Below, piece after piece: positions 7,576 through 43,926 of a stretch of DNA of 64,000 bases. Numbering within the stretch: position 1 is the first letter of the stretch; each line of letters opens with the position of its first letter. Location: the NCBI GenBank assembly GCA_016235065.1, contig JACRMB010000003.1, forward strand, positions 531,943 to 595,942, read 5' to 3'. The translations under genes were made by a program, and so were the position numbers. Under the pieces are notes generated by a model that saw only the letters and a list, made by a program, of their open reading frames with translations, was not told where the DNA came from and made no database searches. Origin of the DNA: Actinomycetota bacterium. GTDB taxonomy: Bacteria; Actinomycetota; Thermoleophilia; BMS3ABIN01.

Positions 7576-8370
7576 ATGATCTCTGACCTGAGACAACTTG
7601 CGGATTACCGCGAGCTGCTGCGCACACTGGTATCCAAGGATATCCGTTCGCGCTACAAGGGCTCTGTGCTGGGCTTCGCCTGGAATTTTGTCATCCCCCT
7701 GCTTCAGCTGTTCGTCTTCTGGCTGCTGTTCGGCATCATCGTCAAGGTGGCGCCCCCGGGGGATTATCCCTTTGCCGTCTTCCTGTTCACCGGCCTGCTT
7801 CCCTGGAACTTCTTCGCCAACTCGGTTACCGGTGGCGCGATGTCGATCATCGGCAACGCCAATCTGGTGAAGAAGATATATTTCCCATTGCAGATCCTGC
7901 CGACGGCAACGGTCTTCTCCCAGTTCGTCAGCCTGCTCCTGGGGATGATCGTACTGGCCATAGTCGTCATCGCCTTCGGCATCGGCTTTGGCTGGCAACT
8001 GCTGTTGCTGCCGATCCCGTTCGTAGTTGAGATGTTCTTCATCCTGGGGCTGGTCTATTTCGTCGCCTGCGCCAACGTCTTCTACCGGGACATCGAGCAC
8101 ATCCTCGGCATCATCATCATGGCCTGGATGTATCTGACCCCGGTGCTTTATCCGATCACCATCCTCGACGGGAAGCCGGCCTGGGCCCAGCTCGCCGCGC
8201 ATCTCAATCCCATGACCGGCATCATCAACGCCTATCAGGTGATAATCCTCGACCATGCCATGCCGGACTGGAAGTGGCTTGGTTACTCGGCAGCCTGTGC
8301 CGTGGTCATGTTCCTGGTGGGCTTCACAGTTTTCAACCGCTACAAGTTCCGGTTCGAGGAGGAGGTCTAG
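7576..8370 (+). CDS. ABC-2 polysaccharide exporter permease (Wzm/TagG-like)
   Basis: 264 residues with about six membrane helices. The N-terminal cytosolic segment ending DIRSRYKGSVLGFAWNFVIP is the classic start of O-antigen/teichoic-acid export permeases. FYRDIEHILGIIIMAWMYLTPVLYP is the conserved late segment of the ABC2_membrane family. It pairs with the ATPase gene 3 bp downstream to export a lipid-linked polysaccharide across the membrane. This opens a four-gene plus-strand operon (permease, ATPase, GT4, GT2). Confidence 0.92.
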   Translation: MISDLRQLADYRELLRTLVSKDIRSRYKGSVLGFAWNFVIPLLQLFVFWLLFGIIVKVAPPGDYPFAVFLFTGLLPWNFFANSVTGGAMSIIGNANLVKKIYFPLQILPTATVFSQFVSLLLGMIVLAIVVIAFGIGFGWQLLLLPIPFVVEMFFILGLVYFVACANVFYRDIEHILGIIIMAWMYLTPVLYPITILDGKPAWAQLAAHLNPMTGIINAYQVIILDHAMPDWKWLGYSAACAVVMFLVGFTVFNRYKFRFEEEV

Positions 8371-8373
8371 GAC

Positions 8374-9600
8374 ATGACTGACTTCGCGATATCGGTGAGG
8401 GACGTAGTCAAGCAGTATCAGGTACGGCACTCCAAGGGCAGGACCCTGAAGGAAGCCTTCTTGCGGCAGAACATCTACCACGAGACAATCAAGGCTCTCG
8501 ACCACGTCTCTTTCGACGTCAAGCCGGGCATCACGATGGGCATCATCGGCAGCAACGGTTCGGGCAAGAGCACGATGCTGAAGCTGATCGCCCGCACTTC
8601 CCGGCCGACCAGCGGTGAGGTCATCGTAAACGGCCGCGTCTCGGCGCTGCTGGAGCTGGGCGCCGGTTTTCATCCCGATTTCAGCGGCAGGGAGAACGTC
8701 TTCCTCGATGGCGCCATCATGGGCCTGCCACGGCGCGTAGTCGAGGAACGCTTCGACGAGATCGTGGCTTTCGCCGAGATGGAGGAGTTCATCGATGCTC
8801 CGGCAAAGACATACTCATCGGGAATGTACATGCGGCTGGCTTTCTCGGTCGCGGTCAGCGTCGACCCGGATATCATCCTCATCGACGAGGTCTTCGCCGT
8901 GGGTGATGAGTCCTTCCAGCGGAAATGCCTGGAGCGGATCGACAGCTTCAAGAGCGAGGGCAAGACTATTCTCTTCGTATCGCATAGCCTGGCCGCCGTG
9001 CGCGGCCTCTGCGACGAAGCGATCTGGATCAACAAGGGCAAGCTGAGCGCCCAGGGTTCGACCGACAAGGTGACGGATTACTATCTCTGGGCGGTCAACA
9101 AGGGCGACGAGGACCGGCTCTCAGCCGAAGAGGCTTTTGAGAGCGACCTCAACCGCTGGGGCACGCGCCGGGGCGAGATCACGGCCGTTGAGTTCTTCGG
9201 CGGCGACGGCGAGCCGAAACATCTTTTCAACACCTCGGAGAAGCTCCGGGTGAAAGTCTCATACCGGGCCACGGAAGAACTGCGCGAGCCGGTGTTCGGC
9301 ATCGGCTTCTACCGCAGCGACGGCGTCTACTGCTTCGCCTGCAATTCCTCGGAGACCGGCAGGACACCGGCGAAGCTCAAGGCCGGCGCGGAAGGCGAGA
9401 TGTGGTTCGAGATCGAAGACCTTTCTCTGCTTCCCGGGGATTACCAGGTATCAGTTTCTTTCCACGACCTGGAGCAGACAGAGACATATGACTATCACGA
9501 CCGCAAATACCGCTTCAAGGTGCTCAAGGGCCCGGAGATCGTCATCGGCCTGTTCAACATGCCGCACCGCTGGACCGGCTGGCCGGAGCTGAAGGCGTAG
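8374..9600 (+). CDS. Polysaccharide ABC exporter ATPase with Wzt-type C-terminal domain
   Basis: 408 residues. The nucleotide-binding domain shows Walker A GSNGSGKST (59-67), signature SSGMYMRLAF (148-157) and Walker B DIILIDE (166-172), with the short VFAVGD segment typical of Wzt/TagH. Residues from about 260 form an extra beta-rich domain like the Wzt C-terminal carbohydrate-binding domain, which in known systems recognises the capped end of the chain. This suggests export of a finished polymer and not of single repeat units. Three bp separate it from the permease and 4 bp from the next glycosyltransferase. Confidence 0.92.
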   Translation: MTDFAISVRDVVKQYQVRHSKGRTLKEAFLRQNIYHETIKALDHVSFDVKPGITMGIIGSNGSGKSTMLKLIARTSRPTSGEVIVNGRVSALLELGAGFHPDFSGRENVFLDGAIMGLPRRVVEERFDEIVAFAEMEEFIDAPAKTYSSGMYMRLAFSVAVSVDPDIILIDEVFAVGDESFQRKCLERIDSFKSEGKTILFVSHSLAAVRGLCDEAIWINKGKLSAQGSTDKVTDYYLWAVNKGDEDRLSAEEAFESDLNRWGTRRGEITAVEFFGGDGEPKHLFNTSEKLRVKVSYRATEELREPVFGIGFYRSDGVYCFACNSSETGRTPAKLKAGAEGEMWFEIEDLSLLPGDYQVSVSFHDLEQTETYDYHDRKYRFKVLKGPEIVIGLFNMPHRWTGWPELKA

Positions 9601-9604: not shown

Positions 9605-11029
9605 ATGTCAGGCGGCCGTCCGACAATCGGCATCATCAGCCACGAGCGGATCGCCGCCTCGATGGCCGGGCCCGGCATCCGCTGCTGGGAATTTGCCCGG
9701 GCGCTCGCCGGTGACGCCGCCGTGAAGCTGTTCAGCCCGGCTGGCTCGGACCTCGAGCCCGAAGGCTTCGAGCTGATCGCCTACGCAAAGGAAGACCATG
9801 CGGGCCTCGCGACGGCGGTAGCCGACTGCGACGTGCTGCTGGCCCAGGGATTCACCTTCAACGAGAACCCGGCGCTGGTGGAGATGGGCAAGCACCTGGT
9901 GATCGACCTGTATGTGCCCATGACCCTGGAAGCGATGGGGCAGTACGAGCACATGACCCTTCCAGAGCAGTCGGGTATCCAGCAGGGGATCATCGGGGCG
10001 CTTGAACGCCAGCTCGAGATCGGCCACTTTTTCATCTGCGCATCGGAGCGTCAGCGCGATTACTGGCTGGGATGGCTTTCCCTGGCGGGAAGGGTGACTC
10101 CGGGCGTTTATGCCGATGACCGGACCCTGCGGCGGCTGATCGGAGTGGTTCCTTTCGGCCTGCCTGAAGCGCCTCCTGAGGCGGCGGGCAAGACTTTGAA
10201 AGGCGTGCATCCCGCAGTCGGTGAGAGCGACAGGGTGCTGCTCTGGGGCGGCGGCATCTACAACTGGCTGGACCCGTTCACGCCTATCCGGGCCGTGGCT
10301 GAACTTGCCGGCAGACGCGATGACATCAGACTTTTCTTCATGGGAACGCGCCATCCCGATCCCAATGTACCCAAGATGCGGGTCTATGACGAGGCGGTGG
10401 AACTCGCCCGTGAGCTGGGGGTGCTGGATTCCGCCGTCATCTTCAACGACAGGTGGGTGCCTTATGCCGACCGGGTAGGCTATCTGCTGGAAGCCGACCT
10501 TGGAGTCAACGCCAACATCGACCATATCGAGACAAGATTCTCTTTCCGCACCCGGATACTCGACTGCATCTGGGCGTCGCTGCCGCTGGTATCGACTCAC
10601 GGCGATTCGCTGAGCGAGATGGCCGAGCGGCGTGAGCTGGGCCTGGTGGTGGAGTCGGGCGACGTGACGGCTTATGCGGCTGCGATCGAGCGGCTGCTGG
10701 ACGACGGTGAGCTTTACGACAGTTGCCGCGCCAATCTTGAGACAGTGGCCGCTGATTTTCGCTGGTCGCGGGCGACGCAGCCGATCAGGGAGTTTATCGG
10801 GCGGGTCGTGGCGGGCGGACAGGGTACGGGAACCGCAGGCGCTGCTGATTCCACAAGGGCCATCCCGAAAAGCCCTGCGATCGACAGGCTGGCGACCGGT
10901 TACAGCGCTGGCGGAGCGGGCGGCGTTGAGTCGCTCGACAGTACAGCTTCCGCCGGTCGCGCTTCGACAGCCGCCGCCGGCCGCAAACTCAAGCAGGCAG
11001 CCAGGAAAGTGAAGAGAAAGCTTAGATGA
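9605..11029 (+). CDS. GT4-type glycosyltransferase
   Basis: 474 residues. It starts TIGIISHERIAASMAGPGIRCWEFARAL, matching the N-terminal Rossmann start of GT4 enzymes that bind the acceptor. The C-terminal donor half includes VLLWGGGIYNWLDPFTPIRA and LEADLGVNANIDHIET, the variant lacking a strong E-x7-E motif. The last 70 residues are an Ala/Ser-rich linker ending in a strongly basic tail (KLKQAARKVKRKLR) that may bind the inner membrane face. The stop overlaps the next ATG (ATGA), so translation is coupled. Predicted to extend the polymer exported by the upstream ABC pair. Confidence 0.85.
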   Translation: MSGGRPTIGIISHERIAASMAGPGIRCWEFARALAGDAAVKLFSPAGSDLEPEGFELIAYAKEDHAGLATAVADCDVLLAQGFTFNENPALVEMGKHLVIDLYVPMTLEAMGQYEHMTLPEQSGIQQGIIGALERQLEIGHFFICASERQRDYWLGWLSLAGRVTPGVYADDRTLRRLIGVVPFGLPEAPPEAAGKTLKGVHPAVGESDRVLLWGGGIYNWLDPFTPIRAVAELAGRRDDIRLFFMGTRHPDPNVPKMRVYDEAVELARELGVLDSAVIFNDRWVPYADRVGYLLEADLGVNANIDHIETRFSFRTRILDCIWASLPLVSTHGDSLSEMAERRELGLVVESGDVTAYAAAIERLLDDGELYDSCRANLETVAADFRWSRATQPIREFIGRVVAGGQGTGTAGAADSTRAIPKSPAIDRLATGYSAGGAGGVESLDSTASAGRASTAAAGRKLKQAARKVKRKLR

Positions 11030-12795
11030 TGATTTCCAAAGCGAAAAAAGCTGCGCGAATACTATTAACCGAGGGTCCGGCGCCGCTGGCGCGGAGTATC
11101 AGCTACAGCCTGAGGAACCCGCTGGCCAAACAGTACAAGCAGTGGCTGCAGGAGAATCCTCTTTTCCCGGCAGACCTGGCGCGGATGAGACGGGACAGTG
11201 CCGGCTTCGACTATCGTCCACTTATCAGCATCGTCACACCGGTTTATAACGTGGACGAGATCTGGCTGACGAAGTGCATCGACTCTGTGATCGCCCAGAC
11301 GTACGATAACTGGGAGCTCTGCCTGGCAGACGATGCCTCTACCGAGCCTCATGTTCACGCGGTGCTCCAGCGGTACCAGGAGCGCGAACCTCGCGTCAAG
11401 GTCGTCTTCCTCGAAGAGAACCGGGGTATCGCCGGCGCCAGCAACGCCGCCCTGGAGCTGGCATCGGGCGAGTTCGTCGGCCTGCTCGACAATGATGATG
11501 AGCTGACCCCGGACGCGCTTTTCCACGTGGTCAGCCTGCTCAACGAGCATCGCGATGCCGACATGATCTATTCCGACGAGGACAAGCTCAACAAGGACGG
11601 CGCCCTCTGTGAACCTTTCTTCAAGCCGGACTGGTCTCCCGATCTTTTCCTGACCCAGATGTACACCTGCCATTTCGGCGTCTACCGCAAGAGTCTGGCT
11701 GATGCCATCGGTGGCTTCCGTGAGGGCTTCGACGGCAGCCAGGACTACGATTTCGTGCTGCGATTGAGCGAGCAGACAGACCGCATCCACCACATCCCGA
11801 AGATTCTCTACCACTGGCGGATGATCCCCGGCTCCACGGCGGAAAAGTACGAATCCAAAGACTCTGATGTGCCCTCGATGAAATCGCTCAGCCATGCAAT
11901 GCGCCGGCGCGGCTGGAAGGGCGTGGTGGAGAGGGGCCTGGAGCCCGGAACTTTCCGAATCCGCTATTACATCACCGGCGAGCCGCTGGTCAGCATAATC
12001 ATCCCGACCCGCGACCGGGCGGAGCTTCTGAAAAAATGCGTCGACAGCATCAGGAAGAAGACCACCTGGGGCAACTACGAGATCATCGTCATGGATAACG
12101 GCAGCAGCGAGAAGGCGTCACTGAAATATCTCGAGGCGTTCGACGCGCTCGAGGGCTGCCGTGTCATCAAACACGAAGGCCCCTTCAATTTTTCTGCGAT
12201 AAACAACGCCGCGGCGCGTGAGGCAGCCGGCGAGATGCTGGTCTTCCTCAACAACGACACCGAGGTCAGCGCCGGCGACTGGCTGGAGGCGATGCTGGAG
12301 CTGGCGCAGCTGCCTCACGCGGGAGCCGTCGGTCCCTGCCTGCTCTATCCGGATGACACCATCCAGCACGCGGGCATCATCCTGGGCCTGGGAGGCATCG
12401 CTAATCCGGCGTTCTATCGCCGGCCGGCGGAAGGCTGGAGCTACTTCAACCAGGCGAGGGTCATCCGCGACTACAGCGCCGTCACCGGCGCCTGCATGAT
12501 GGTTAGGAAGGAAGTCTTCGAGGAGCTTGGCGGCTTCGATGAGGAAAACCTGCCTATCGCCTACAACGACATCGATTTCTGCCTGAGGCTGCGGGAAAAG
12601 GGATATCAGTCGGTCTATACGCCGTTCGCCATCCTCTATCATGACGAGGGCGCCAGCCGCGGCTACGGCCCCGATCCGGAGGCGGATTACATGATTGAGA
12701 AGTGGCGGGGCGTCATCGACCGCGATCCCTTCTACAATCCCAACCTCGCCCGCGACCGCTTCGACTTCAGTCTGAAACTGCGGCAGCCTTCCTGA
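11026..12795 (+). CDS. Bidomain GT2 family glycosyltransferase
   Basis: 589 residues with two GT-A domains. The first starts ISIVTPVYNVDEIWL (about residue 67) with metal-site LDNDDEL. The second starts VSIIIPTRDRAELL (about 322) with LNNDTEV and a conserved VTGACMMVRKEVFEELGGFDE-type acceptor region. Two-domain GT2 enzymes usually add two sugars or act processively in O-antigen or rhamnan assembly. It overlaps the GT4 stop by 4 bp and ends in a 29 bp convergent overlap with the minus-strand membrane gene. Confidence 0.9.
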   Translation: MMISKAKKAARILLTEGPAPLARSISYSLRNPLAKQYKQWLQENPLFPADLARMRRDSAGFDYRPLISIVTPVYNVDEIWLTKCIDSVIAQTYDNWELCLADDASTEPHVHAVLQRYQEREPRVKVVFLEENRGIAGASNAALELASGEFVGLLDNDDELTPDALFHVVSLLNEHRDADMIYSDEDKLNKDGALCEPFFKPDWSPDLFLTQMYTCHFGVYRKSLADAIGGFREGFDGSQDYDFVLRLSEQTDRIHHIPKILYHWRMIPGSTAEKYESKDSDVPSMKSLSHAMRRRGWKGVVERGLEPGTFRIRYYITGEPLVSIIIPTRDRAELLKKCVDSIRKKTTWGNYEIIVMDNGSSEKASLKYLEAFDALEGCRVIKHEGPFNFSAINNAAAREAAGEMLVFLNNDTEVSAGDWLEAMLELAQLPHAGAVGPCLLYPDDTIQHAGIILGLGGIANPAFYRRPAEGWSYFNQARVIRDYSAVTGACMMVRKEVFEELGGFDEENLPIAYNDIDFCLRLREKGYQSVYTPFAILYHDEGASRGYGPDPEADYMIEKWRGVIDRDPFYNPNLARDRFDFSLKLRQPS

Positions 12796-21537: not shown

Positions 21538-21697
21538 TCGTTGCTGGGCGTCTCGGTGGCTATCGGTTCTGCGCCCGCTGAACCGGTGAAACTGCTCTTC
21601 AGGCCAAGGTTTATCGCTGATTCTGACGATACTATTATTGGACGCGGGCTGTTCAAGTTTATCGACGGCTGCCCGAAGAACCAGCATCGAAAGAGTA

Positions 21698-24600
21698 ATG
21701 AGACACCTCGCACGTCATCTCAGAGCCTTCGGGGGAATTATAAAAGGGGCTATCCCGATCTCACTTGTCCTCATGGCAGGACTTCTTGCCCTGACCGCAG
21801 CCCCCGCGCTTGCCGCCCCGCCGACGGTCACGCCCGCGGCGCCGAGTGTCAATGAGGCTCCCGACTACGCGTCCGAGAACTGGGCAGATCCCTGGGATTA
21901 CAATAACGTCGAGGACCTCAGCCTGACCCCGGTCGTGCAGTCGGTCAACGTCTCCGGCCTCGCCATGAACGGCGGCAGCCTCAGCTTCAACAACTCAAAC
22001 GGCTACATCGTCCCGGTCTGGTCCTCAGGCGCGTTCGCCCATGGGCGGGACGCTGACATCCATCCAGTAGACGCCGGCAGGTACACGCGCCTGTCGTTCC
22101 GGATGTATTCCAGCGTGTCGTCCAACGCCGGCCAGATCTCCTGGTTCAGCTGCGCCGGCGCTGTCCCCTCCTGCTGGGGCGCCATGCCGCTGCAGGTGCA
22201 ACAGGGATGGAACACCTACGATGTGCTCCTGGCCCCGGGATACGGACCGGCGGCGCCTACACCCTGGTCGGGTGCTATCAAGGTGCTTCGTCTGGCGCCC
22301 GGTGCGGCCGGCAACATCCAGCTCGACTGGATGCGCGTCTATCAGCCCGGCGGCAGCGGCGTCAATCTAACGGTTTCCGGTGGCTACGCTGACGAAGTCT
22401 GGTGGGACACTGACACCGACCCCAATAACAACGATCCCTCGCAGGTCGGCGGCAAGAGCGCCGGCCGGCTGGCCTGGTACACGCCCAACGGCGGCACGGT
22501 CAACTTCCCTTCGGCGCAGTTCCCGCCGGGCACTTATTACTTTTACTCCAAACAGGGTGGTCAGGTCTCTGGCTACAGCAGCCCGGTGACGGTTGACGCG
22601 GCGCCTGAACCGGTCGTCATCGATCCGGATATCGCCGGCGGCGACGACTACGCAACCGTGGTTCGCGGCGACGCCTGGGATTTCTGGCAGGCGGGCGACG
22701 CCTGGCAGGTCAACAACTCAACCAAATCTGTCGCCGCGGGCATGTTGCGAGGAAGTTACGCGGGTCCCTATCCAAACGACCCCCAGGTGATCCTGCCGCA
22801 GGCCGGCCAGATCAACGCCAGTCTCTATCACCGCCTGACTTACCAGGTCTATTATGATGGGCCATTCGGCCTGGATAATGCTCCCGGCGGCGGCATGGTT
22901 GCCCGCACCATCTGGACGGTGAATCAGGGCGGAGTACCCGGATACCACGATTCCCAGGACATGATCGTCTTCCCCGGGTGGCAGACGGTAAGCGTCGACC
23001 TCAAGACCAACCCGCCTTCGCTGGCGGAAGATGAAGCTTCGACTAATCCGATCGGCTGGGGCGGCCCTCTCAGCGGCTGGGTGGGAAGCTTCCGCTTCGA
23101 CCCGCACGAGGACCCGGGCGGCCGTGTCTGGTATCTGGAGGATATCCGCCTGGCCCGTGACGACCGCGGCACACCGAACTTCGACATCCAGTTCCAGGAT
23201 AACGGCTGGGAGTCTGGAACAACCGCCGAACTCTGGGCGGACGCCGACACTTCCGGCTATAACGGCTACCAGATCGCCAGCGGCATCCCGGTTAATCAGG
23301 GTGTGAACATCTACAACTGGAACGGCGGCGGCGTGCCGGCGTGGGGGATCTGGCATATCCATGTGAAGCTGACCGATCCGGACGGAACGATCAGTCGCGC
23401 TTATTCGACCGGGCCTGTGGAGATAAGCCCACCGCCGGATGCGACGCCGCCGGTGGTCAGCGTCACGGCGCCATCAGGCGGGATCTCCGTAGGTGACCCC
23501 GTGATAACGGCGACAGTCAGCGACGCGGCGCCTTCCAGCGGCATCAACGGTGCTTCGGCGACGCTCAGCCTTAATGGCGGTACCACGACTCCCTGCACGG
23601 TCGTCGGCGCGAATATCAGCTGCCCGACCAGCGGTCTTGAGAACGGCCATTACAGCTCGACCGTCTCGATCTCAGATAACTCCGGTAACTGGGGAACCGC
23701 CAGCGGCTCATTCGACGTCGCCGGCCAGAGCTATGACCTTTACAGCAGTTACTTCACCTGGTACGACAATGTGGGCGGCTCAAACTGGGTACTGATGTCT
23801 AACCCGACCGGCTCGGTTGACGACATCACTTTCGATCTCGCCATCGCCGGCGCGGTCAAGCCCATCGCCCCTCTTTCGGGCCAGGCGGTCGGTCAGGCCC
23901 ATCCGGGGCAGTCAGTCTTTGCCAGCTATCCGGGCTTGAGGGACGGCCCGGTAGAGGTGGGCTACAAGGCGATTGGCGGCACCGGCGACAAGGCTCTGGC
24001 CAGCCAGCGCATCCTCTGGGCGGGCAAATCCCTGGAGGAAGTGCCGGCGACCGAGAGCACCAAGCTTTCAGATCACTTTTACTGGACCTGGTACGACCAG
24101 CAGACTCCGGGCTATGCCAACTGGGTGATGGTGGCCAATCCCGGGGCGGTCGAGGTCTATTACCAGATCACTATCGCCGGTGAGGATCCCGGCACCGGTA
24201 GTACAGGAACTATCGCCGCGGGAGGATACGCCATGGCTGCCTTCCAGGGAAAGATCGGCGGCCCGGTAGAGGTCAGGGCCTGGAGCGGTGATCCTGACCC
24301 GGCTCAGGGCTCGCCCGCCAATGTCATGGCGTCCCAGCGGGTGCTCGCCAACTACGGAGGCGCCTTCAACGAAGTCCCGGGCATACCGGTGAACGAACTT
24401 TCCAGCGACTACCTCTGGACCTGGTACGACAGCGTCGGTACGGCCGGCCGCAACTGGATCATGATCAACAACCCCGGGAGCGGACCGCCCGAGCTTTATT
24501 ACAAGATCAAGGTCGGCGGCACGGAGGAAGTGCAGTGCGACGGACCTGTGCTGCAGAATGGCTACGCATTCTGGAACAAGACCAACCTGCTGAACGGCCC

Positions 24601-25066
24601 GGTCGAGCTGAAGACATATTCCGATTCTGGCTGTACCATAGCCGCGAACTCGGTGGCATCCCAGCGCGTCGTCTGGGGACCCTCCTTCGAAGAGGTGCCG
24701 GGCACGCCGCTGACATCGCTGGCTGCCGAATACCACTGGACCTGGTACGACCAGAAGAGCGCCGGCGCCCAGAACTGGGTCATGGTGGCGCCGAAGCCTG
24801 GAGAGGCCGACATCATCACAGTCGTCGCCAGCTTCACGGATGAGAACGGAGTGCCGCGGACAAGCGGCCCCCACGACATCAACCCCGCGGACCCCAATCC
24901 TGATAATCGCCGCTGGTACTGGACCTCACCGAACACCCGTGGCGGACCGGTTCAGGTTATCGCCTACAAGAAGGACGCTCCCGGCACGCCCAAGCAGGTA
25001 ATCGTCTCCCAGCGTGTACTCTGGGGCGGGTACTTCAACGAGGTGCTGGGGACGGTGCTGAACTAG
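21698..25066 (+). CDS. Secreted beta-sandwich protein with four-repeat WYD tail (paralogue C)
   Basis: 1122 residues from ATG at 21698. A start 60 bp upstream in frame is possible but adds no signal-like sequence. The signal peptide reads ISLVLMAGLLALTAAPALAAPP. The first 620 residues contain two related jelly-roll-like segments resembling carbohydrate-binding modules (GWNTYDVLLAPG; GWQTVSVDLKTNPP; LDWMRVYQPGG), then an Ig-like domain beginning VVSVTAPSGGISVGDPVI. No catalytic motif was recognised. The tail (about 684-1122) has four repeats starting YFTWYDNVGGSNW and ending VLWGGYFNEVLGT. It may be an adhesin or a structural surface-glycan binder. Function is inferred from fold impressions only. 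Confidence 0.82.
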   Translation: MRHLARHLRAFGGIIKGAIPISLVLMAGLLALTAAPALAAPPTVTPAAPSVNEAPDYASENWADPWDYNNVEDLSLTPVVQSVNVSGLAMNGGSLSFNNSNGYIVPVWSSGAFAHGRDADIHPVDAGRYTRLSFRMYSSVSSNAGQISWFSCAGAVPSCWGAMPLQVQQGWNTYDVLLAPGYGPAAPTPWSGAIKVLRLAPGAAGNIQLDWMRVYQPGGSGVNLTVSGGYADEVWWDTDTDPNNNDPSQVGGKSAGRLAWYTPNGGTVNFPSAQFPPGTYYFYSKQGGQVSGYSSPVTVDAAPEPVVIDPDIAGGDDYATVVRGDAWDFWQAGDAWQVNNSTKSVAAGMLRGSYAGPYPNDPQVILPQAGQINASLYHRLTYQVYYDGPFGLDNAPGGGMVARTIWTVNQGGVPGYHDSQDMIVFPGWQTVSVDLKTNPPSLAEDEASTNPIGWGGPLSGWVGSFRFDPHEDPGGRVWYLEDIRLARDDRGTPNFDIQFQDNGWESGTTAELWADADTSGYNGYQIASGIPVNQGVNIYNWNGGGVPAWGIWHIHVKLTDPDGTISRAYSTGPVEISPPPDATPPVVSVTAPSGGISVGDPVITATVSDAAPSSGINGASATLSLNGGTTTPCTVVGANISCPTSGLENGHYSSTVSISDNSGNWGTASGSFDVAGQSYDLYSSYFTWYDNVGGSNWVLMSNPTGSVDDITFDLAIAGAVKPIAPLSGQAVGQAHPGQSVFASYPGLRDGPVEVGYKAIGGTGDKALASQRILWAGKSLEEVPATESTKLSDHFYWTWYDQQTPGYANWVMVANPGAVEVYYQITIAGEDPGTGSTGTIAAGGYAMAAFQGKIGGPVEVRAWSGDPDPAQGSPANVMASQRVLANYGGAFNEVPGIPVNELSSDYLWTWYDSVGTAGRNWIMINNPGSGPPELYYKIKVGGTEEVQCDGPVLQNGYAFWNKTNLLNGPVELKTYSDSGCTIAANSVASQRVVWGPSFEEVPGTPLTSLAAEYHWTWYDQKSAGAQNWVMVAPKPGEADIITVVASFTDENGVPRTSGPHDINPADPNPDNRRWYWTSPNTRGGPVQVIAYKKDAPGTPKQVIVSQRVLWGGYFNEVLGTVLN

Positions 25067-25213: not shown

Positions 25214-25912
25214 ATGCCCCACGTTTACCAACGCCAGATAGACATCGACAGCGGCGACTCGCTCGCCCTCATAGCCCGCAAGATCACCCGTGGCAGCCGC
25301 GTGCTGGAACTCGGGGCGGCAACAGGTTATTTCAGCCGTTTCCTCAAGGAGGAGCTGGGCTGCACGGTAGACGGTATCGAGCTCGATGCGGTCATGGCCG
25401 CCGAAGCCGCGCCGTTCTGCGGCAAGCTGGTGGTCGGCGACCTTGGCAAGGAGCGGCTGCTGGACCATTTTAAGCAGGGTGCATATGACTTCATCATCTG
25501 CGCTGATGTGCTTGAGCATCTTTACAGCCCCGAGGCGGTGCTGGAACAGCTGCCGGCGCTGCTGGCATCGGGAGGCAATGACGGCCAGCACGGCAAGGTC
25601 ATCGTGTCGATCCCCAATATTGGTTACGCCGGCGTCATACTCGATCTGATCGAGGGCGGCTTCCAGTATCGTGACGAGGGCATCCTCGACCGCACGCATA
25701 TCCGCTTCTTCACGAGAGGCAGTTTCGAAGGCATCCTCAGCACGGTCGGCTACGAGGTGGAATCGGTCGAGCCAGTGCGCCGGGCCCTCGAGGAGAGCGA
25801 GTTCTTCGGCAGGCTCGACCAGATGCCGGTGCCGCTGAAGAATTATCTTTTTGCCAGGCCTGACGCGGATGCCTATCAGTTCGTGTTCGTCATCCGGCCT
25901 GTGGGGACTTGA
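25214..25912 (+). CDS. Class I SAM-dependent methyltransferase
   Basis: 232 residues. Motif I VLELGAATGYF at about 31-41, acidic strand-2 end VDGIELD, motif DFIICADVLEHLYSPE and a later strand KVIVSIPNIGY define a Methyltransf_11/23-type fold. LDRTHIRFFTRGSFEGIL is typical of sugar- or glycolipid-modifying methyltransferases in polysaccharide loci. It lies between paralogue C and the GH26 gene, with 147 bp upstream. The substrate is unknown. Confidence 0.87.
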   Translation: MPHVYQRQIDIDSGDSLALIARKITRGSRVLELGAATGYFSRFLKEELGCTVDGIELDAVMAAEAAPFCGKLVVGDLGKERLLDHFKQGAYDFIICADVLEHLYSPEAVLEQLPALLASGGNDGQHGKVIVSIPNIGYAGVILDLIEGGFQYRDEGILDRTHIRFFTRGSFEGILSTVGYEVESVEPVRRALEESEFFGRLDQMPVPLKNYLFARPDADAYQFVFVIRPVGT

Positions 25913-26073: not shown

Positions 26074-28515
26074 ATGAGAAAACTCAGGCTCATCTTTTCA
26101 TCGTTTGCAATGGCAATGATTTGCTCTCTTATGATTATCCCGCTCGTTCAAGCGCAGACTTCGTACCCCGATGGCCCACAAATAGGTGCTTTTCTTCCTA
26201 ATCCCAATCAATACAATCCTAATCCATGGAACGATACTCAATTTGAGCAGTTATCAGGCCACAATCTTGACATTTTTTTATGGTACCAAGACTGGACGGG
26301 TAACTATAGTGCTCCCAATCCACCAGTCATTCAAATAGCATCCGAAGTTGCTTCTGCAGCGAGCGCTGGACACACAATCCAACTGGCATGGGAGCCGCAT
26401 GAACAGGGAGCGCCATATGTTCCCTCGCCACAATGCAGCCCTACTGCGCAGCAAGGCCAACTTTCTTTACAATGCATGGCACAAGGTGGTTATGACGCGA
26501 GCCTCATAATTCCGTGGGCGGATGCTTTAAAGAATTTTAAGGATGCTCAGGGTAATCCATATACTGTCCTCTTTCGTCCGATGTGTGAAATGAATGGCGA
26601 TTGGGTGGATTGGGGAACAACGAATCCAACTAACTCGTATTACATTCAGGCATGGCAGCACATTCATGACGTTTTTTATGAACGAGGCGCTTCAAATGTT
26701 ATTTGGGTCTGGTCGCCGAACCGAGACGGTAGTACAACAAGCGCGCAGAACACATTTAATAATTACTATCCAGGTAATAATTGCTTAGGTAGTGATGGAC
26801 AAAGAAATCATCCTTGCGTTGATATTATCGGTATTGACGGATACAACTTCGGAACGGAATGTACCAATCCAACTTGTGGATGGGTGTCAAATTGGCAAAA
26901 CTTGGGTCAAGTTTTTGGCCCAAGTTATGACGTTTTTGCACATAATCAGCAAACCATGAATATGCCAATAATGATTGCAGAGATGTCATCAACCGAGAAT
27001 GGCGGTGATAAGGCGTCGTGGATTACATCAGCATATACTTCGTGGCTTCCGTATAGATTCCCGCGAGTTGTCAATGTCACATGGTTTAATGAAAGAAAAC
27101 CTGAAGGACTGAATGGAGGATCTCCGATTATCGATTGGAGTATTGCAAGTTCGACAGAAAGCCAGCAGGCTTTTCAATCTGCTATGCAAAGCCTGAACGA
27201 TCACACCTATTTTATGAATTGGTACGATAATATCGGTGGGGATAATTGGGTGATGATAGCAAATCCCGGTGTCAATAACGTCTCTGCGGATCTGTCTATT
27301 CCTGGAGTTTTCCCCGGGGATACATCGATAACTATTCCTTTGTCCATTAATCCGCAAAGTACAGGACTATTTGCTAGAAGCAATTCAAGGGGTGGTCCAG
27401 TAAAGATTACGACTCACAATAATACAAATGTCATAGTAAGCCAACGAATGAATTATCCGAAAGGATACAGCGGAAATTCATTTGAAGAAATTCTAGCTCG
27501 AGACTACAACAATCTATCTAGCCTTTATTATTGGCCGTGGTACGATACGAAGGATTCCCGCTTTAGCAGTGGAGTCTACATTCAGATAGCAAACATAAAT
27601 CCATTCGAAATTTATTACGAGATAAAGATTGGTGAAGAGTCAAATCCTTGTCTGAAGAATGGGGGGTGCGGCACGATCTCGCCATCCGGAACAGGATTAA
27701 ACAGTATGGTATTTCCAACCTTCGCGAACATCCAGAGTGGCCCGGTTGAGGTTCAAACTTGGGTCTCCGAAATTGATGAATCAGGCAATCAGAAGAAACT
27801 TTCACCTGCATTCAGCGTGCCTTCACAACGCCTGCTCTTTAACGGAAATGCTCTAAACGACACGCCGGGAACATCAGCTTCGGAGTTGTCTGACCATTAT
27901 ATTTGGACCTGGTATGATCTATATGATCCAAGGGTAAACGGTGATTGGATTGTAGTCACCAATCCATCTACGAGTGAAACAGTAACTGCAGTAGTCTCAT
28001 TCTTCGATCAAATTAGTGGCACCCCAGTAAATGTGTCGCATAACATTGCCCCAGGGGATACTTGGCCGTTCTACTTTCCTGGTAAAAGAGGTGGGCCGGT
28101 GGAGATCAAAGCATCTTTGGCGGGATTTGCATGGCCTAGCAATAAGAGAAGTGTAATAGCCTCGCAGCGAGTAATTTGGGGTCCTTCATTTGACGAAGTT
28201 CCAGGCATGCCATTCGATGCACTTAGTAGTGAATACTTCTGGACTTGGTATGATCAGTCGTCGCGGCCGAATGTTCAGGATTGGCTTCTTATAGGAAATC
28301 CTAATGCGGCACAAGTAACCTATACAGTAAAACTCAATGGTGTTACACAGCCCTGTTGGCCTTGCACGCTTTCGGGCGGTGAGACGGCTGTCCTAGCTTT
28401 TTCACCACCACAAAATGGGCCGTTGGAGATTGTCTCTTCTGGCGGAAGCGTAGTAACTTCCAGGCGGATTCTTTGGAATGGATACTTTGACGAGGTCTGG
28501 GGGACTAAAACCTAA
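26074..28515 (+). CDS. Secreted GH26-like glycoside hydrolase with four-repeat WYD tail (paralogue D)
   Basis: 813 residues. The signal peptide ends near LVQA (27). A TIM-barrel domain of GH26 (beta-mannanase) type covers about 35-360: GRF-like start IGAFLPNPNQY, acid/base glutamate E172 in RPMCEMNGDW and likely nucleophile E303 in IMIAEMSSTE. The residue before the acid/base is Cys in place of the usual His. The tail (about 376-813) has four WYD repeats ending ILWNGYFDEVWGT. The gene is clearly AT-richer than its neighbours throughout, including the tail, which suggests arrival by transfer from another lineage. Predicted to cut a mannan-like or related beta-glycan outside the cell. Confidence 0.88.
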   Translation: MRKLRLIFSSFAMAMICSLMIIPLVQAQTSYPDGPQIGAFLPNPNQYNPNPWNDTQFEQLSGHNLDIFLWYQDWTGNYSAPNPPVIQIASEVASAASAGHTIQLAWEPHEQGAPYVPSPQCSPTAQQGQLSLQCMAQGGYDASLIIPWADALKNFKDAQGNPYTVLFRPMCEMNGDWVDWGTTNPTNSYYIQAWQHIHDVFYERGASNVIWVWSPNRDGSTTSAQNTFNNYYPGNNCLGSDGQRNHPCVDIIGIDGYNFGTECTNPTCGWVSNWQNLGQVFGPSYDVFAHNQQTMNMPIMIAEMSSTENGGDKASWITSAYTSWLPYRFPRVVNVTWFNERKPEGLNGGSPIIDWSIASSTESQQAFQSAMQSLNDHTYFMNWYDNIGGDNWVMIANPGVNNVSADLSIPGVFPGDTSITIPLSINPQSTGLFARSNSRGGPVKITTHNNTNVIVSQRMNYPKGYSGNSFEEILARDYNNLSSLYYWPWYDTKDSRFSSGVYIQIANINPFEIYYEIKIGEESNPCLKNGGCGTISPSGTGLNSMVFPTFANIQSGPVEVQTWVSEIDESGNQKKLSPAFSVPSQRLLFNGNALNDTPGTSASELSDHYIWTWYDLYDPRVNGDWIVVTNPSTSETVTAVVSFFDQISGTPVNVSHNIAPGDTWPFYFPGKRGGPVEIKASLAGFAWPSNKRSVIASQRVIWGPSFDEVPGMPFDALSSEYFWTWYDQSSRPNVQDWLLIGNPNAAQVTYTVKLNGVTQPCWPCTLSGGETAVLAFSPPQNGPLEIVSSGGSVVTSRRILWNGYFDEVWGTKT

Positions 28516-28585
28516 TTAAAAGGCGCTGGATTGTAGACGCTTTATAGAACTACAAACGATTATTTAGGATCATGAAGAAGTGAAA

Positions 28586-29380
28586 TTACTTATACGCCAG
28601 CACCGTAAAGACATTACCGGTGCCCAGGTTCTTGTTGAACATCTTGCGGATACTAAGGTAGTTGCGTAAGTATCTGGCATCCCGTGGGTAGATCTCCCAG
28701 GATTGTGTCTGCTTCTCGGGCTGGAATCCAGCATTGCATAAAAGGCCGACAAACCAATCCCTGTCGAGTGGCTCCTCATCCGTGTCGAGGTGCTCATTGC
28801 CCAAGGCATGGACTTCAGGAGAATAGGGCTTCAGGTTGCTTTGTGCCTTCGCATTCCATTCAGCAATCTCTGACGGTGTTTCATCGACAATCTTGATTGG
28901 TTCTGAAATGAGCACAAAACCGCCGCTACGCAAGACCCGGTGCAGTTCGCTCAGCAACCAGCTGAGTTCCGCGCTTTTTAGATGATGTAAAAATCCTGTG
29001 CAAAAAATTGCGTCGTAATGGCTATCATCAACATCAGACAAAAAATCCACAAAGTCACTTCTTATGAAATTAATATCCGCAGACGAATTTGACAGATTGC
29101 TTTGGGCCTGGGCCAGCATCGCTTCCGAGCCGTCCACAGCGTCGACTGAATTAAAATACCGGTCAAACCGCAATGTCATGTGACCGGTACCACATCCGAG
29201 ATCGAGAGCGCGGTGCATTTTACCCTGCTTTAAGTATTTTCTGTAACTATTGAAGATCAGGTCATTTGTGAACTGCCGCGGCTTTACGATCACCTCATCG
29301 TATTCTGAGGCTACGGCATTGTGATAAAGCCGGTCTTTTTGTTTATGGGCATCTTCGGATTGAGACAAATTGTTGTTCAA
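28586..29380 (-). CDS. Class I SAM-dependent methyltransferase
   Basis: 264 residues starting MNNNLSQSEDAHKQKD. Motif I ALDLGCGTGHM, acidic residue in DAVDGSE, motif AIFCTGFLHHLKSAE and strand GGFVLISEPIK define a Methyltransf_11-type enzyme. The end (NLGTGNVFTVLAYK) is complete. It is convergent with the GH26 gene and divergent from the GT2-radical SAM gene, with 189 bp between the latter starts. Moderately lower GC than the neighbouring exporter genes. Substrate unknown. Confidence 0.88.
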   Translation of the reverse strand: MNNNLSQSEDAHKQKDRLYHNAVASEYDEVIVKPRQFTNDLIFNSYRKYLKQGKMHRALDLGCGTGHMTLRFDRYFNSVDAVDGSEAMLAQAQSNLSNSSADINFIRSDFVDFLSDVDDSHYDAIFCTGFLHHLKSAELSWLLSELHRVLRSGGFVLISEPIKIVDETPSEIAEWNAKAQSNLKPYSPEVHALGNEHLDTDEEPLDRDWFVGLLCNAGFQPEKQTQSWEIYPRDARYLRNYLSIRKMFNKNLGTGNVFTVLAYK

Positions 29381-29569
29381 CGATCGTCAACCATCCTGGT
29401 AGGAGAAAATAATAGTGAAATCGTGCGTAGAGTATAACCCGATGCACGGCAGGAAGGAAAAAGACAGACAACTTTCTGATAATGTAATTATCAGTGCATG
29501 GAATACGGAATCGGCATGAAATGGCAGATATGTCGGTGATTAAATAGTTATACAGAAACAGATGGGAAA

Positions 29570-31657
29570 ATGAAAAGTAAATCCGTACGGGCCTGCGGCC
29601 TCCTTTTTTGTTATAACGAGGAACATATCCTCAGGGAAACCCTCAAGTACTACCTGAGTCAAGGTATCGACTTAGTGGCGGTCGATAACTGCTCCACGGA
29701 TGCCAGCCCCAGGATCGTACAGGAGTTCATAGGGGATCCGGGCCGCTACACAGGCCGGTTAATCGATACCATCCGGGTGGAGACTGACGGCTATGAATGG
29801 GGCAAGATCCTCAAGGCTGCCAGTGACTACATGCACCGGAATCTGACCGGATATGACTGGATCCTGCAAATCGATGCCGACGGATTCTACCAGTCTCCAG
29901 TCAGAGGGATGTCTCTACTTCACTTCATTAGCACCGCACAGCGATTCGGTTATAACATCATCGATGGCAAATGGTTCGATTTCCATCCTACGGAGGCGGA
30001 TGAACCATCGATAGAATCTCCGATGGAGCGTATCCATTATTGTCGGGTGGAACCCTACGGCCCGATGCCACAGCACAAGATATTTCGGTACCATCCATCC
30101 ATCGATTTTTATACCAGCCTGGGCCATGAGTGCCACAGGGACAAGCCGCGGGTGGCGCCGTTGAAATACATTTACCGCCACTATCCCTGGGTCTCATTCG
30201 AGCATGGTGTACAAAAGATTTTCAAGGACCGCAAACCGCGCTATGTGGAGCGCAAGGAAAATCCCCTATATCACATGCATTATCTGGAGCTACTCCCCCA
30301 AGAGGACGATCTGGTTAAATGCTCGTCCGACCTGTACCGGTTCAATGAGAATGAGGTGACGGTCTCAAAGGACGCATTCTACCGGATGTTGTTTCGCGAC
30401 AGGTTAAGGCCTGTGGTGCGTATGGTACGTAAGGCCGCGCGTAAGGGGGTGTCGGTAGTCCGCCGGGCTCCAGATCAGAAATATCCGGAATCGGCTGGGC
30501 CAGAGGCATGTAGTCCGGCTGAGACAACTAATACTGATGAATCTTCGGCAGCTTATAGTACCGAAGCCCCGGCAGCAGCACGTACCGTGACTGAGGAGGA
30601 GATCATGGCCCGCGGGGCTAGCACTATGGGATTTCCACACACCTTTCATTTCCTGATGACAACCGCCTGCAACGCTCGATGCCTCTTCTGTAATCAGGAC
30701 TTCTCCCAGCCGCTTAACGAGATAACGCTGGAGAAATTCAAGCAGATGATTTCCCATATGCCAGTGGAGTCGGCAAAGATTTTTTATTTGAGTGGCGGTG
30801 GCGACCCACTTTTATGCCGAGACTTCTTTCCCATCCTCAAGTACATAAACGAAGAGTTTCCCTGGATCAATGTGCGTGTGCGAACCAATGGCCTGCTGCT
30901 AAATAAATATGCGGAGCAGTTGGCTGAGCAGAACCTGCGCCTTGAGCTGTCGGTGCATGGAGCAACCGATGAGACCAACAGCCGCATACTGGGTACGAAA
31001 AAGGCTGCCGGCGTATTCGAAGGCCTGGAATCGCTCAATGCTATTCTTGCAGAGAAAGGCCGTCATATGGAGATAGCCTTTGTGCCCGCCTTGCTTAAAT
31101 TCAATATTCGCGAGTTGCCGGACATCATCAGGAAAGCGGCGGAGCTCAAGGCAAGCACGGTGGAGTCGTTTTTTTGCCGCTGCTATCTAGGTGAGGAGTA
31201 TCAGGGGGAGGGGCGTATCACCGAGGCAGAATCCCTTTTCTTCAGCCAGGAAGAGTATGACGAGGTAATTGAAGAAGCGGTGAATGTGGCCGCGTCACTG
31301 GGCATCTGTTTCACGCACGAACCCCGTTTCTCTGAAGAGTTTCACTCCAAAGCCTGCTACGAACCCTGGAGGATGCTGTTGGTTGATTGGGACGGTGAGG
31401 TCTCTCCCTGTTGCGGCGGTGAGATGTGGTTTAAGAAGAAGGTGGCTTCCGGGGAGTACCATTTTGGCAATCTGCTGAGTGAAGACCTTTATCAGTTCTG
31501 GAACAACGAGACTTATGTGGCTATCAGGAGGACACTCAGCCCTCATTATCCCGATAATCTGGTGCCTGAATGCAGTAATTGCCACAGCCTTCTCTGCTTC
31601 GAGGGACCGCAAGCGCGGGATGGGCACATCATCGACCGGGAGCCAAGCACAGCGTAG
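29570..31657 (+). CDS. GT2-like glycosyltransferase fused to radical SAM/SPASM domain
   Basis: 695 residues. The N-terminal domain (1 to about 280) is GT2-like: GLLFCYNEEHILRETLKYYL, AVDNCSTDAS and a DxD-type site DWILQIDADG. A basic then Ser/Ala/Thr-rich linker (about 285-350) leads to a radical SAM domain whose cluster cysteines C367, C371 and C374 sit in ACNARCLFC. It is followed by YLSGGGDPLL and RTNGLLLN. C-terminal cysteines C614, C615, C668, C671 and C676 fit a SPASM/Twitch auxiliary cluster. Both halves look intact. It could add a sugar and then radically modify it, or the two domains may act on one glycolipid or glycopeptide. The fusion is continuous with no frameshift sign. Confidence 0.88.
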   Translation: MKSKSVRACGLLFCYNEEHILRETLKYYLSQGIDLVAVDNCSTDASPRIVQEFIGDPGRYTGRLIDTIRVETDGYEWGKILKAASDYMHRNLTGYDWILQIDADGFYQSPVRGMSLLHFISTAQRFGYNIIDGKWFDFHPTEADEPSIESPMERIHYCRVEPYGPMPQHKIFRYHPSIDFYTSLGHECHRDKPRVAPLKYIYRHYPWVSFEHGVQKIFKDRKPRYVERKENPLYHMHYLELLPQEDDLVKCSSDLYRFNENEVTVSKDAFYRMLFRDRLRPVVRMVRKAARKGVSVVRRAPDQKYPESAGPEACSPAETTNTDESSAAYSTEAPAAARTVTEEEIMARGASTMGFPHTFHFLMTTACNARCLFCNQDFSQPLNEITLEKFKQMISHMPVESAKIFYLSGGGDPLLCRDFFPILKYINEEFPWINVRVRTNGLLLNKYAEQLAEQNLRLELSVHGATDETNSRILGTKKAAGVFEGLESLNAILAEKGRHMEIAFVPALLKFNIRELPDIIRKAAELKASTVESFFCRCYLGEEYQGEGRITEAESLFFSQEEYDEVIEEAVNVAASLGICFTHEPRFSEEFHSKACYEPWRMLLVDWDGEVSPCCGGEMWFKKKVASGEYHFGNLLSEDLYQFWNNETYVAIRRTLSPHYPDNLVPECSNCHSLLCFEGPQARDGHIIDREPSTA

Positions 31658-31666: not shown

Positions 31667-32848
31667 CTACCCTAACAGATCCTGTACGCAGGGGGGCTGG
31701 CCGGCGAAAAGTTCCCTGGTCTTTTCATCTACCTGCGGCGCCTGCCCGTCCGCGTTCTCACGGCTCAACTGATACAGTGCCGCCAGCAGCTTCCCAAGTT
31801 CGGGGTCCTGCCCCTTTTTGAGCAAACGCAGATATGTGCCAATCAATGAATCGATGCAGCGGTCCGGTTCATAGGCCACGGTGTCAAAGTAGGCGTCCTC
31901 GCCTTCGGCCATTGAGAATATCTTCGCGTCGGAGACGACCCGTTTCGATCTCAGTTCGCGCCTTTCTTCCAGCAATCCACGCAGGCCGCCCAGGTAAGCG
32001 CTGATCGTCTTCAGGTTGGGCCCGATGAATTTGCGGCGGATGAACGTCCGCGCCAGCAACCTCAGACAACGCGAAGAGACGATATGCGCTACCCGGAGCC
32101 GGCTCTCGAAATTGCGGGTCACCATCTTCAGGGTGTTCAGCTCGATCAATCCGTATTTCAGGTTGAGGGATTCGTTGCGGGTGACGCCCGAGTGCATATG
32201 CAGCACGATGGAGTCGGGGGCGGTCAGGAACCGGTATCCCTGGCTGACGGCGCGCATGCACCAGTCGGAGTCCTCGAAGTAGAGGAAATAGCCCTCATGC
32301 AGGGGGCCTACCCGGTCGGAGTCGAACAGCTCGCGGCGGAGCAATCCGGCTCCGAAGCAGACGCCCGCGACCTCTTCCTCTTCATCATACTGACCCAGGT
32401 CGCACTGACCGATGCCGCGGTTAAAAGCAGCGCCCGTGGGAGGCAGCACGATGCCGATGGCGTCGATTATGCCCTCGTGGGAGCTGGACATCATCTTGGG
32501 GGCGATACCGGCCACGTCTTTGCCGGCACTCTCGAGAGCCGCGACCATCCGCGCCAGCGACCCTTCCATCAGCACCGCATCGGTGTTCAGCATCAAAACC
32601 AGCGGCTCGTCTACTTCGTCGAGGCCGCGATTGACGGCGGCGGCGAAGCCGGGATTCCCTGGCATCTCGATGATCCTGACTTCGGGGAATTCCTCTCGCA
32701 CCTGCCCGACGACGCCGTCGCCTGAGGCGTTATCCACCAGGGTCACGCTGCAGGTCACGCCACTATCGGCCTGGCTCAGGACCGAGCGCAGGCAGCGCTC
32801 CAGCATCTCCCAGGGAGAGCGGTAATTGACTATCACACAACCGACCAA
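31667..32848 (-). CDS. GT2 family glycosyltransferase (rhamnosyltransferase-like)
   Basis: 393 residues. The GT-A domain starts VGCVIVNYRSPWEMLERCL. It has LVDNASGDG, the donor-site MLNTDAVL, and a typical FYFEDSDWCMRA-like FLYFEDSDWCMRAVSQG segment seen in rhamnosyl- and similar transferases. The C-terminal helical part is variable. The stop lies 9 bp from the convergent GT2-radical SAM gene, and the start faces the DUF2142 gene. Its exact acceptor and donor are unknown. Confidence 0.9.
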   Translation of the reverse strand: MVGCVIVNYRSPWEMLERCLRSVLSQADSGVTCSVTLVDNASGDGVVGQVREEFPEVRIIEMPGNPGFAAAVNRGLDEVDEPLVLMLNTDAVLMEGSLARMVAALESAGKDVAGIAPKMMSSSHEGIIDAIGIVLPPTGAAFNRGIGQCDLGQYDEEEEVAGVCFGAGLLRRELFDSDRVGPLHEGYFLYFEDSDWCMRAVSQGYRFLTAPDSIVLHMHSGVTRNESLNLKYGLIELNTLKMVTRNFESRLRVAHIVSSRCLRLLARTFIRRKFIGPNLKTISAYLGGLRGLLEERRELRSKRVVSDAKIFSMAEGEDAYFDTVAYEPDRCIDSLIGTYLRLLKKGQDPELGKLLAALYQLSRENADGQAPQVDEKTRELFAGQPPCVQDLLG

Positions 32849-41332: not shown

Positions 41333-42484
41333 CTGGCAATCAAACGGGAAAAAACCTCTTATCCCGGTGTCAGTTTTATTTGGGGAACAGGCTCTACGGG
41401 GCAGGCGGAGAAGATTTACCACATCCGCTACCGGACTAGACGGGATGATGGCACTTGGGCCGATCATACCGAGTCTGCAGGCCGCCAATATCGCGACCGC
41501 ATGACTGCTCGAAAAGCCTCGATTGTTCGCGCAGAACGGATTTCAGGCCGCGTAAAACCTAATATTGAGCGGCGAGCAGAAGCCAAGGCAGCCCAACTCA
41601 AGAAGAAATGGACGGTCGCCGCGCTCTGGATTGAATATCAGCAGGCCAACCCCGGCCTGAAAGCATATAAAGATTACAACAGCCTATACAATCGCTATAT
41701 TAGCCCCAGTTTCGGCGACAAGCAGCCTAAGGCAATCCTCGCGTCTGAACTTGACCAACTGAAGAGTCAGCAGCTTAAAGGTAAATCCCCTCAAACCGTT
41801 GCCCACGTGCTTGAGTTGCTCAGGCGGATAATAAACTTTGGTGTTAAACGCGGCCTCTGCACAGGGCCGGGCTTCGTTATTCAGCTTCCCCGGCTTCATA
41901 ACGAGAAAACGGAGGATTTGACACCGGAACAAATGAGGAGGCTGAGTGAGGTTATTAACAGCCATATTGATATGAGATCGCCATATCGATGGGGAGCCAA
42001 CATGATGCGACTGGCTTTGCTTACTGGGATGAGACGGGGGGAAATGTTCAGGCTTAAATGGGATGACATCGACTGGCATCACAAAAATATCTTACTTCGA
42101 GAAGCAAAATCCGGGCGAGATGAAATAATCCCGATGAGCAGTTATACCGAAGCGCATCTTCGGGCTATCCGGGATACAGAGCATTCAGAAAGCCCTTATA
42201 TATTCCCCGGCAAAGCTGGAGGCCCACGATCTGATATACGCCAACCGGTTAATCATCTTAAGACAGAGGCGGGGCTACCCGGCGACTTTAGAGCATTACA
42301 TGGCCTCAGGCATGTATTCGCCAGCGGCTTAATTTCAAACGGCATCTCTAAGGACGTTGTGGCCCGCCTGCTAACGCATAAAGGCCAGACCGTAACCGAT
42401 AGATACGCTCATATTCGGGATGATGCATTACGGCATGCGGCAGAGCTGGCAGGGCAAATTGTGGAGGACGCTGGGAAACCTTAA
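41333..42484 (+). CDS. Tyrosine recombinase/integrase
   Basis: 383 residues if translation starts at CTG 41333, six bases after AAGGGGGAA. The reading frame from there encodes YPGVSFIWGTGSTGQAEKIY and then a typical arm-binding N-terminus; the first ATG in frame (41501) would delete that domain. The SAM-like core-binding region spans about 85-190. The catalytic domain has TGMRRGE (Arg I), LHGLRHVFAS (HxxR) and VTDRYAHI (Tyr nucleophile). It catalyses integration into and excision from the tRNA-Gly(CCC) gene. It is transcribed away from attL. Confidence 0.9.
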   Translation: MAIKREKTSYPGVSFIWGTGSTGQAEKIYHIRYRTRRDDGTWADHTESAGRQYRDRMTARKASIVRAERISGRVKPNIERRAEAKAAQLKKKWTVAALWIEYQQANPGLKAYKDYNSLYNRYISPSFGDKQPKAILASELDQLKSQQLKGKSPQTVAHVLELLRRIINFGVKRGLCTGPGFVIQLPRLHNEKTEDLTPEQMRRLSEVINSHIDMRSPYRWGANMMRLALLTGMRRGEMFRLKWDDIDWHHKNILLREAKSGRDEIIPMSSYTEAHLRAIRDTEHSESPYIFPGKAGGPRSDIRQPVNHLKTEAGLPGDFRALHGLRHVFASGLISNGISKDVVARLLTHKGQTVTDRYAHIRDDALRHAAELAGQIVEDAGKP

Positions 42485-42717
42485 ATAACAGAGGGGTTGC
42501 ACAGGCATAATGAGGTATAGTAGCGTATGGTTGTGGGGAAAAGTACGTCCAAAAGGGCGAGTGGCATAGCAGATTGTGAAGAAGGAGGCATATAAGCTGA
42601 TGCGGTATTCAGCTATATGATTATTATACTTACTTATATAAGGTAAATTAGTTTGCATCGGCAGTTATACTGTGGTAATCTTATAAACATAGAGTTAGAA
42701 GTGTTTATAGAGGATTT

Positions 42718-42743
42718 AACCGTCAAATTGGGCGGTTTTTTTA
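42718..42743 (+). terminator. Rho-independent terminator downstream of the integrase
   Basis: A 7 bp stem (42718-42724 with 42731-42737, including one G-T pair), a six-base loop and a run of T. The following TTATTGCCTAAAAA is repeated after the second terminator at 42920. The region 42485-42717 shows no supported gene. Confidence 0.7.
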
Positions 42744-42770
42744 TTGCCTAAAAATAAAAGAAAAATTCTG

Positions 42771-42799
42771 TTGAACCAGACGCGCCGCGGGGGTAGAAT
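42771..42799 (+). promoter_or_regulatory. Sigma-70-type promoter of the candidate small RNA
   Basis: TTGAAC (42771-42776) and TAGAAT (42794-42799) with a 17 bp spacer. No start codon with a ribosome site follows before the terminator at 42920, so the short transcript is probably non-coding or a leader of the excisionase gene. Confidence 0.6.
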
Positions 42800-42805
42800 G
42801 CACAA

Positions 42806-42943: not shown

Positions 42944-42974
42944 ATTGCCTAAAAACAACAGAGGTGAAGTAATA

Positions 42975-43913: not shown

Positions 43914-43926
43914 AGTTTTAAGGTTT

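Follow-up and report, generated by a model that had tools for sequence, protein, structure and literature searches.

A rare fusion of a GT2 glycosyltransferase with a radical SAM/SPASM domain in two bacterial phyla: a candidate bifunctional glycan enzyme

What would a single protein do with a glycosyltransferase (GT) at one end and a radical SAM/SPASM enzyme at the other? Sugar-directed radical SAM chemistry is known mostly from antibiotic pathways, and a GT welded to a radical SAM domain would directly indicate the substrate class. Such a fusion would also offer a handle on the unassigned radical SAM genes of glycan loci, and the surface glycans of bacteria could gain keto or rare sugars by it; as a small, defined family it would be suited to expression work. 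Listings from the literature searched, mainly openly accessible papers, showed no description of a GT2-radical SAM fusion. We analysed one such gene in a 64,000-nucleotide stretch of an actinomycetotal genome, called the window below. The gene is laid out as follows.

29570..31657, + strand: GT2-radical SAM/SPASM fusion gene, 695 aa (Pfam, six homologous fusions)
29591..30355, + strand: GT2 (GT-A) half, residues 8-262
30356..30634, + strand: variable linker, residues 263-355 (93 residues)
30635..31309, + strand: radical SAM core, residues 356-580, with CxxxCxxC at 30668-30691 and GGGDP at 30794-30808
31355..31585, + strand: SPASM/Twitch domain, residues 596-672, with cysteines 596, 614, 668 and 671

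The sequence-only reading had placed a GT2 and a radical SAM/SPASM domain in one continuous frame, and this was confirmed: the gene is a single unbroken ATG frame of 695 codons, and base shuffling (300 shuffles) gave a longest stop-free run of 217 codons. In the window protein, all Pfam matches exceeded their cut-offs, namely Glycos_transf_2 (PF00535; residues 14-107, 30.0 bits against 23.3), Glyco_tranf_2_4 (PF13704; residues 16-116, 30.1 against 27.5), Radical_SAM (residues 363-491, 58.3 against 29.5) and SPASM (PF13186; residues 596-672, 47.9 against 21.5). The motifs named in that reading were located at residues 15-18 (YNEE), 102-104 (DAD) and 367-374 (CNARCLFC).

Two genes joined by an assembly or frameshift error could imitate such a protein, and the linker contains an in-frame ATG (M346, at 30605) that is closely preceded by GGAGG and could resemble a second start. 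Six further genomes, however, encode the same domain order in one frame at 43-51% identity, and the internal start is absent from those members. An assembly join near 30440-30610, the danger pointed out at the outset, is therefore excluded, and an artefact of either kind is so improbable that the fusion can be treated as a real single gene. In the window itself, the ATG at M346 could be the start of a free radical SAM protein.

The carriers are the window genome, G016 from the same family, and five genomes from the Omnitrophota draws (G424, G731, G623, G806 and G890). The window genome (2.37 Mb, 10 contigs) held one full-length match and seven matches to the radical half alone, and a set of 60 genomes (its own and 59 relatives) added one more full-length match, that of G016, at about 51-52% identity. 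A contig search returned one match, a Candidatus Omnitrophota contig (L028, genome G424). With a three-row profile, the fusion was found in 2 of 396 genomes of the window's phylum and in 4 of 384 of the Omnitrophota phylum draw around G424 (G424, G731, G623 and G806); no genome was common to these two draws among the rows listed. The GT-half profile found two fusions and seven solo GTs among 299 genomes of the window's class, and four fusions (G424, G806, G623 and G890) and one solo GT among 384 of the class of G424. The family of G424 carried the fusion in 2 of 108 genomes and the order of G623 in 2 of 42; the draws overlap, so that counts across them are not additive. The distribution is thus rare and patchy, in two bacterial phyla. 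A plasmid search matched the radical half only (21 records), and scans of viral contigs and a phage search returned no relative of the fusion, which leaves a viral or phage origin unsupported.

Both catalytic sites were conserved in a seven-row alignment of all members, in which the G806 protein ends at its contig end, after the second auxiliary cysteine. In the GT half, YNE (15-17), D39 and the DxD-type acidic pair D102 and D104 were invariant in all seven, as was a histidine-rich block that closes this half (H204-Y-P-W207, H212 and K216, plus H235); all six members scanned matched GT2 Pfam families. The radical SAM site was equally complete (CxxxCxxC, 367-374, and GGG[DE]P, 409-413, in 7/7). 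Over 21 pairs, mean pairwise identity was 0.53 for the GT half and 0.46 for the radical core, compared with 0.16 for the linker; the SPASM part reached 0.53 over the 15 pairs that exclude G806. The linker spans 45-117 aa between matching columns in the other members. With both domains and their sites conserved and the linker drifting, the pattern suggests that selection acts on the two domains while the tether between them is free to vary, and the GT half could plausibly work as a GT-A enzyme. Alternatively, one half might be catalytically idle and serve binding or regulation, the GT fold for example as a glycan-binding module. This is improbable, because every member retains both the acidic residues of the GT half and the site of the radical half, and the halves are similarly conserved.

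The auxiliary site differed in detail from first expectation. Five C-terminal cysteines suited to an auxiliary cluster had been proposed; from residue 590 onward the window protein has six (596, 614, 615, 668, 671 and 676), and only part of this set is conserved. C596 and C614 occur in all seven members, and C668 and C671 in all six that reach that far and so carry a complete SPASM part, with the spacing C-x17-C-x53-C-x2-C; C615 and C676 vary. A full two-cluster SPASM domain has seven conserved cysteines. Since only four are conserved here, one auxiliary cluster fits, and the arrangement resembles a Twitch-like site, with four cysteines for a single cluster, more than a full SPASM pair. Structure prediction added little: from an alignment of two rows, the full-length protein gave a poor model (mean pLDDT 41.7), and the radical-half model reached 54.8 with a fair core and a SPASM part mostly below 50, its Foldseek matches at this low confidence being radical SAM enzymes in general.

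In order to trace the origin of the fusion, a tree was built for each half; rows below 35 (GT) or 70 (radical SAM) bits, rows below 60% or 70% profile coverage, respectively, and duplicates were left out. In the GT-half tree (14 rows), for which a warning of long branches was issued, a branch with support 96/97 separated the seven fusions from the seven other rows. The radical-half tree (34 rows) united them in one clade (100/100), against 27 other rows. As the fusions thus group together in both trees, their best explanation is one fusion event. Most forks inside the fusion clade were unresolved, so that the branching orders of the halves can be compared only at the G623-G890 pair, which appears in both trees. 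The nearest sampled neighbours of the radical half were Omnitrophota radical SAM/SPASM domains (support 95/92), a placement that the sampling itself favours, as most neighbour rows came from the Omnitrophota search. Solo GT relatives were distant (38-121 bits versus 423-467 for the fusions), and seven of the eight entered the GT tree, that of G974 being the one missing. No radical SAM gene was detected near any of the eight, in stretches of 3.8 to 18 kb, and hence no split pair supports a functional link between the halves. Overall, the family is probably bifunctional and appears to be small, of single origin and patchily spread.

The surroundings of the gene in the window are those of a glycan locus, with Wzm, Wzt, GT4 and GT2 genes, a DUF2142 gene and two methyltransferases. 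The features relevant here are the following.

7576..9600, + strand: Wzm/Wzt-type ABC exporter (Wzm 7576-8370; Wzt with Wzt_C domain 8374-9600)
9605..12795, + strand: GT4 and double-GT2 genes of the exporter locus
25214..25912, + strand: MetW-like SAM methyltransferase (Pfam), with a homologue lying about 26 bp upstream of the G016 fusion
26074..28515, + strand: GH26-like protein (Pfam) with lineage-typical C-terminal repeats, GC3 0.40; putatively secreted, from its N-terminus judged by eye
28586..29380, - strand: second SAM methyltransferase (Pfam), GC3 0.55
31667..32848, - strand: GT2 adjoining the fusion (Pfam), found directly after the methyltransferase in the relative G012

The fusion is preceded by an intergenic gap of 189 bp, and the convergent GT2 gene lies 9 bp past its stop. 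Across 26074-31657, GC3 was 0.40, 0.55 and 0.62 (GH26-like gene, second methyltransferase and fusion, respectively) versus 0.71-0.83 for other locus genes. In G012, the methyltransferase match (1190-1858) and the GT2 match (1932-3104) lie 73 bp apart, with this segment missing between them. Horizontal gain of the segment is likely on these grounds, although two observations count against it, the lineage-typical repeats of the GH26-like gene and the host-like GC3 (0.76) of the fusion in G016. Co-selection of the fusion with the MetW-like methyltransferase was considered and rejected, as G012 (64-65%) and G013 (52-53%) carry the methyltransferase without the fusion. Elsewhere in the window, TWYD...NWVM...GGPVEV repeat units recur in large proteins (21638-25066 and 26074-28515), one of them joined to the GH26-like domain (26074-28515), and also in family members. 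An LGFP-repeat protein is encoded as well; together with the 66-73% GC of loci in class-mates and the lack of overlap between the rows listed for the two phylum draws, it suggests that the window belongs to a phylum other than Omnitrophota, putatively Actinomycetota. A prophage or remnant occupies 41501-50684, with an integrase (41501-42484), a capsid gene (44399-45727) and, as possible attachment site, a tRNA-Gly (50609-50684).

A search for other fusions and their neighbours had been suggested from the sequence; most of the neighbourhoods are glycan-assembly loci. The G016 fusion follows the methyltransferase homologue and leaves about 40 bp on its other side. In G424, two B12-binding radical SAM genes precede the fusion and a similar-looking one (by eye) follows, with 10 bp on one side and an overlap on the other. 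The G731 fusion, with 2 bp or an overlap on both sides, has radical SAM/SPASM, PMT-type, GT2 and B12-radical SAM neighbours; directly after it, a CofD (2-phospho-L-lactate transferase) domain is joined to a response-regulator-like N-terminus (L068:2256-3695). G890 has radical SAM and B12-radical SAM genes and a GT2-looking gene (by eye), and in G806 a double-GT2 gene immediately precedes the fusion. In G623 no GT gene lies beside the fusion; a Fer4_5 protein abuts its upstream end, an NAD-binding reductase is encoded about 1.4 kb away on that side, and these two could supply electrons.

The tight spacing bears on whether the target might be a peptide or protein, which the GT2 half would glycosylate and the SPASM half would crosslink or epimerise. 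SPASM enzymes are often peptide maturases, and SunS and GmaR are GTs that glycosylate a peptide or protein. The best solved match of the GT profile was GmaR (5.2e-5), with SunS weaker (0.015), and a candidate 34-codon frame lies at 29415-29519. However, both matches are confined to roughly the first 100 residues of the GT fold, the window protein scored below cut-off against the NCBIfam maturase models, and the loci of G016, G424 and G731 leave no space for an adjacent precursor-peptide gene. A peptide or protein target is accordingly doubtful. The coupled two-step modification of a glycan or glycopeptide suggested by the sequence-only reading is thus weakened in its glycopeptide part, by these three of the seven loci, and retained in its glycan part.

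Glycan neighbourhoods, together with the tight spacing in 3/7 loci, favour a glycan as the common target of both halves. We propose, with a probability of about 0.5, that the fusion is bifunctional and acts in glycan assembly, attaching a sugar and oxidising or epimerising one on the same chain. In its favour are the catalytic sites conserved in seven full or near-full members and the glycan character of most loci. Against it stand the missing GT neighbour in G623, the lack of a split pair among the eight solo GTs, the unspecific BtrN match described below, and the fact that the best NCBIfam model, though far below cut-off (87.7 bits versus 380), is the tungsten-enzyme maturase TIGR04317. Among the matches listed, the fusion appears to lie outside the named NCBIfam radical SAM families; a PADLOC match to viperin (pVip) was confined to the core (45 bits), and the NCBIfam viperin models scored below cut-off.

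In the proposed mechanism, in which the activity of both halves, their common substrate and the reaction are inferred, the N-terminal GT-A domain would move a sugar from a nucleotide-sugar donor onto a growing surface glycan, for whose export the Wzm/Wzt system in the window's locus is the probable route. Its C-terminal partner would cleave SAM at the CxxxCxxC cluster and abstract hydrogen from a sugar carbon of the same glycan, with the one four-cysteine auxiliary cluster transferring electrons and the flexible linker letting both domains reach one bound chain. The product would be a keto sugar, formed by a BtrN-like two-electron oxidation, or, as second choice, an epimer; oxidation is the leading outcome, at clearly less than even odds, and epimerisation or another sugar rearrangement a good deal less probable. 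More tentatively still, the protein could be the first polysaccharide-directed SPASM enzyme, a transfer-and-oxidise synthase that holds the nascent surface glycan by its GT while its radical domain edits one of the sugars, and that has passed between two phyla of bacteria as an accessory gene.

Among solved structures, the family radical profile matched BtrN best (1.9e-10), with the four cysteines aligning to the C-terminal part of BtrN. A control profile of six other radical SAM/SPASM proteins, whose best match was PqqE, matched BtrN more strongly (2.5e-21); the likeness to BtrN therefore appears to be general and not specific to the fusion family, which weakens it as proof of chemistry. BtrN, a 2-deoxy-scyllo-inosamine dehydrogenase of the Twitch type, resembles the fusion, as other SPASM proteins do, in its radical SAM core and in the domain behind it, where the four cysteines align in the profile match. 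Four cysteines ligate its auxiliary cluster, and it oxidises an aminocyclitol by two electrons (PMC9012708). Unlike the fusion, BtrN is a small free-standing enzyme.

The cytosylglucuronate decarboxylase BlsE is likewise among the best solved matches, in core sequence and in fold. It differs from the fusion in that the sequence match is limited to the core and the GT domain is not matched; its reported substrate is a nucleoside uronic acid (PMC3715490). A plasmid of Brachyspira hyodysenteriae encodes a radical SAM/SPASM protein that, like the fusion, sits within glycan genes (PMC4267127), between rfbF and a gene of the dTDP-4-dehydrorhamnose 3,5-epimerase family; it is unfused and about 25% identical over the radical half. 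The same plasmid carries a row of radical SAM genes among glycan genes (L065:9962-19153). The BlsE substrate and the placement of the Brachyspira relative among nucleotide-sugar genes both point to another possibility, that the radical half alters a nucleotide sugar before transfer and channels a rare or unstable activated sugar to the GT half. The logic of a fusion would apply equally well. No nucleotide-sugar gene lies directly beside the fusion in the window, however, and the sequence gives no donor, so that editing of the donor seems unlikely, and editing on the glycan chain is preferred.

With other GT2 glycosyltransferases (PF00535/PF13704), the GT half has the fold, YNEE and DxD in common; it stands apart in forming a clade of its own, joined to a radical enzyme. 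Giant Omnitrophota frames (L071:1-5625, L072:3-6164 and L075:1-3969) also combine GTs and radical SAM/SPASM in one chain, and their radical domains neighbour that of the fusion among the sampled rows. They join a coiled-coil-looking N-terminus to GT4, radical SAM and radical SAM/SPASM domains, with a GT2 as well in L071 and L072, and after them come B12-domain proteins with two radical SAM domains and runs of further radical SAM genes; L073:198-5201 and L074:7031-12100 are further giants by length and motif only. The giants differ from the fusion in their other GT2 type, which the fusion GT profile misses, in the extra GT4 and in the second radical domain. They represent a separate and larger GT-radical SAM architecture that arose by a separate fusion.
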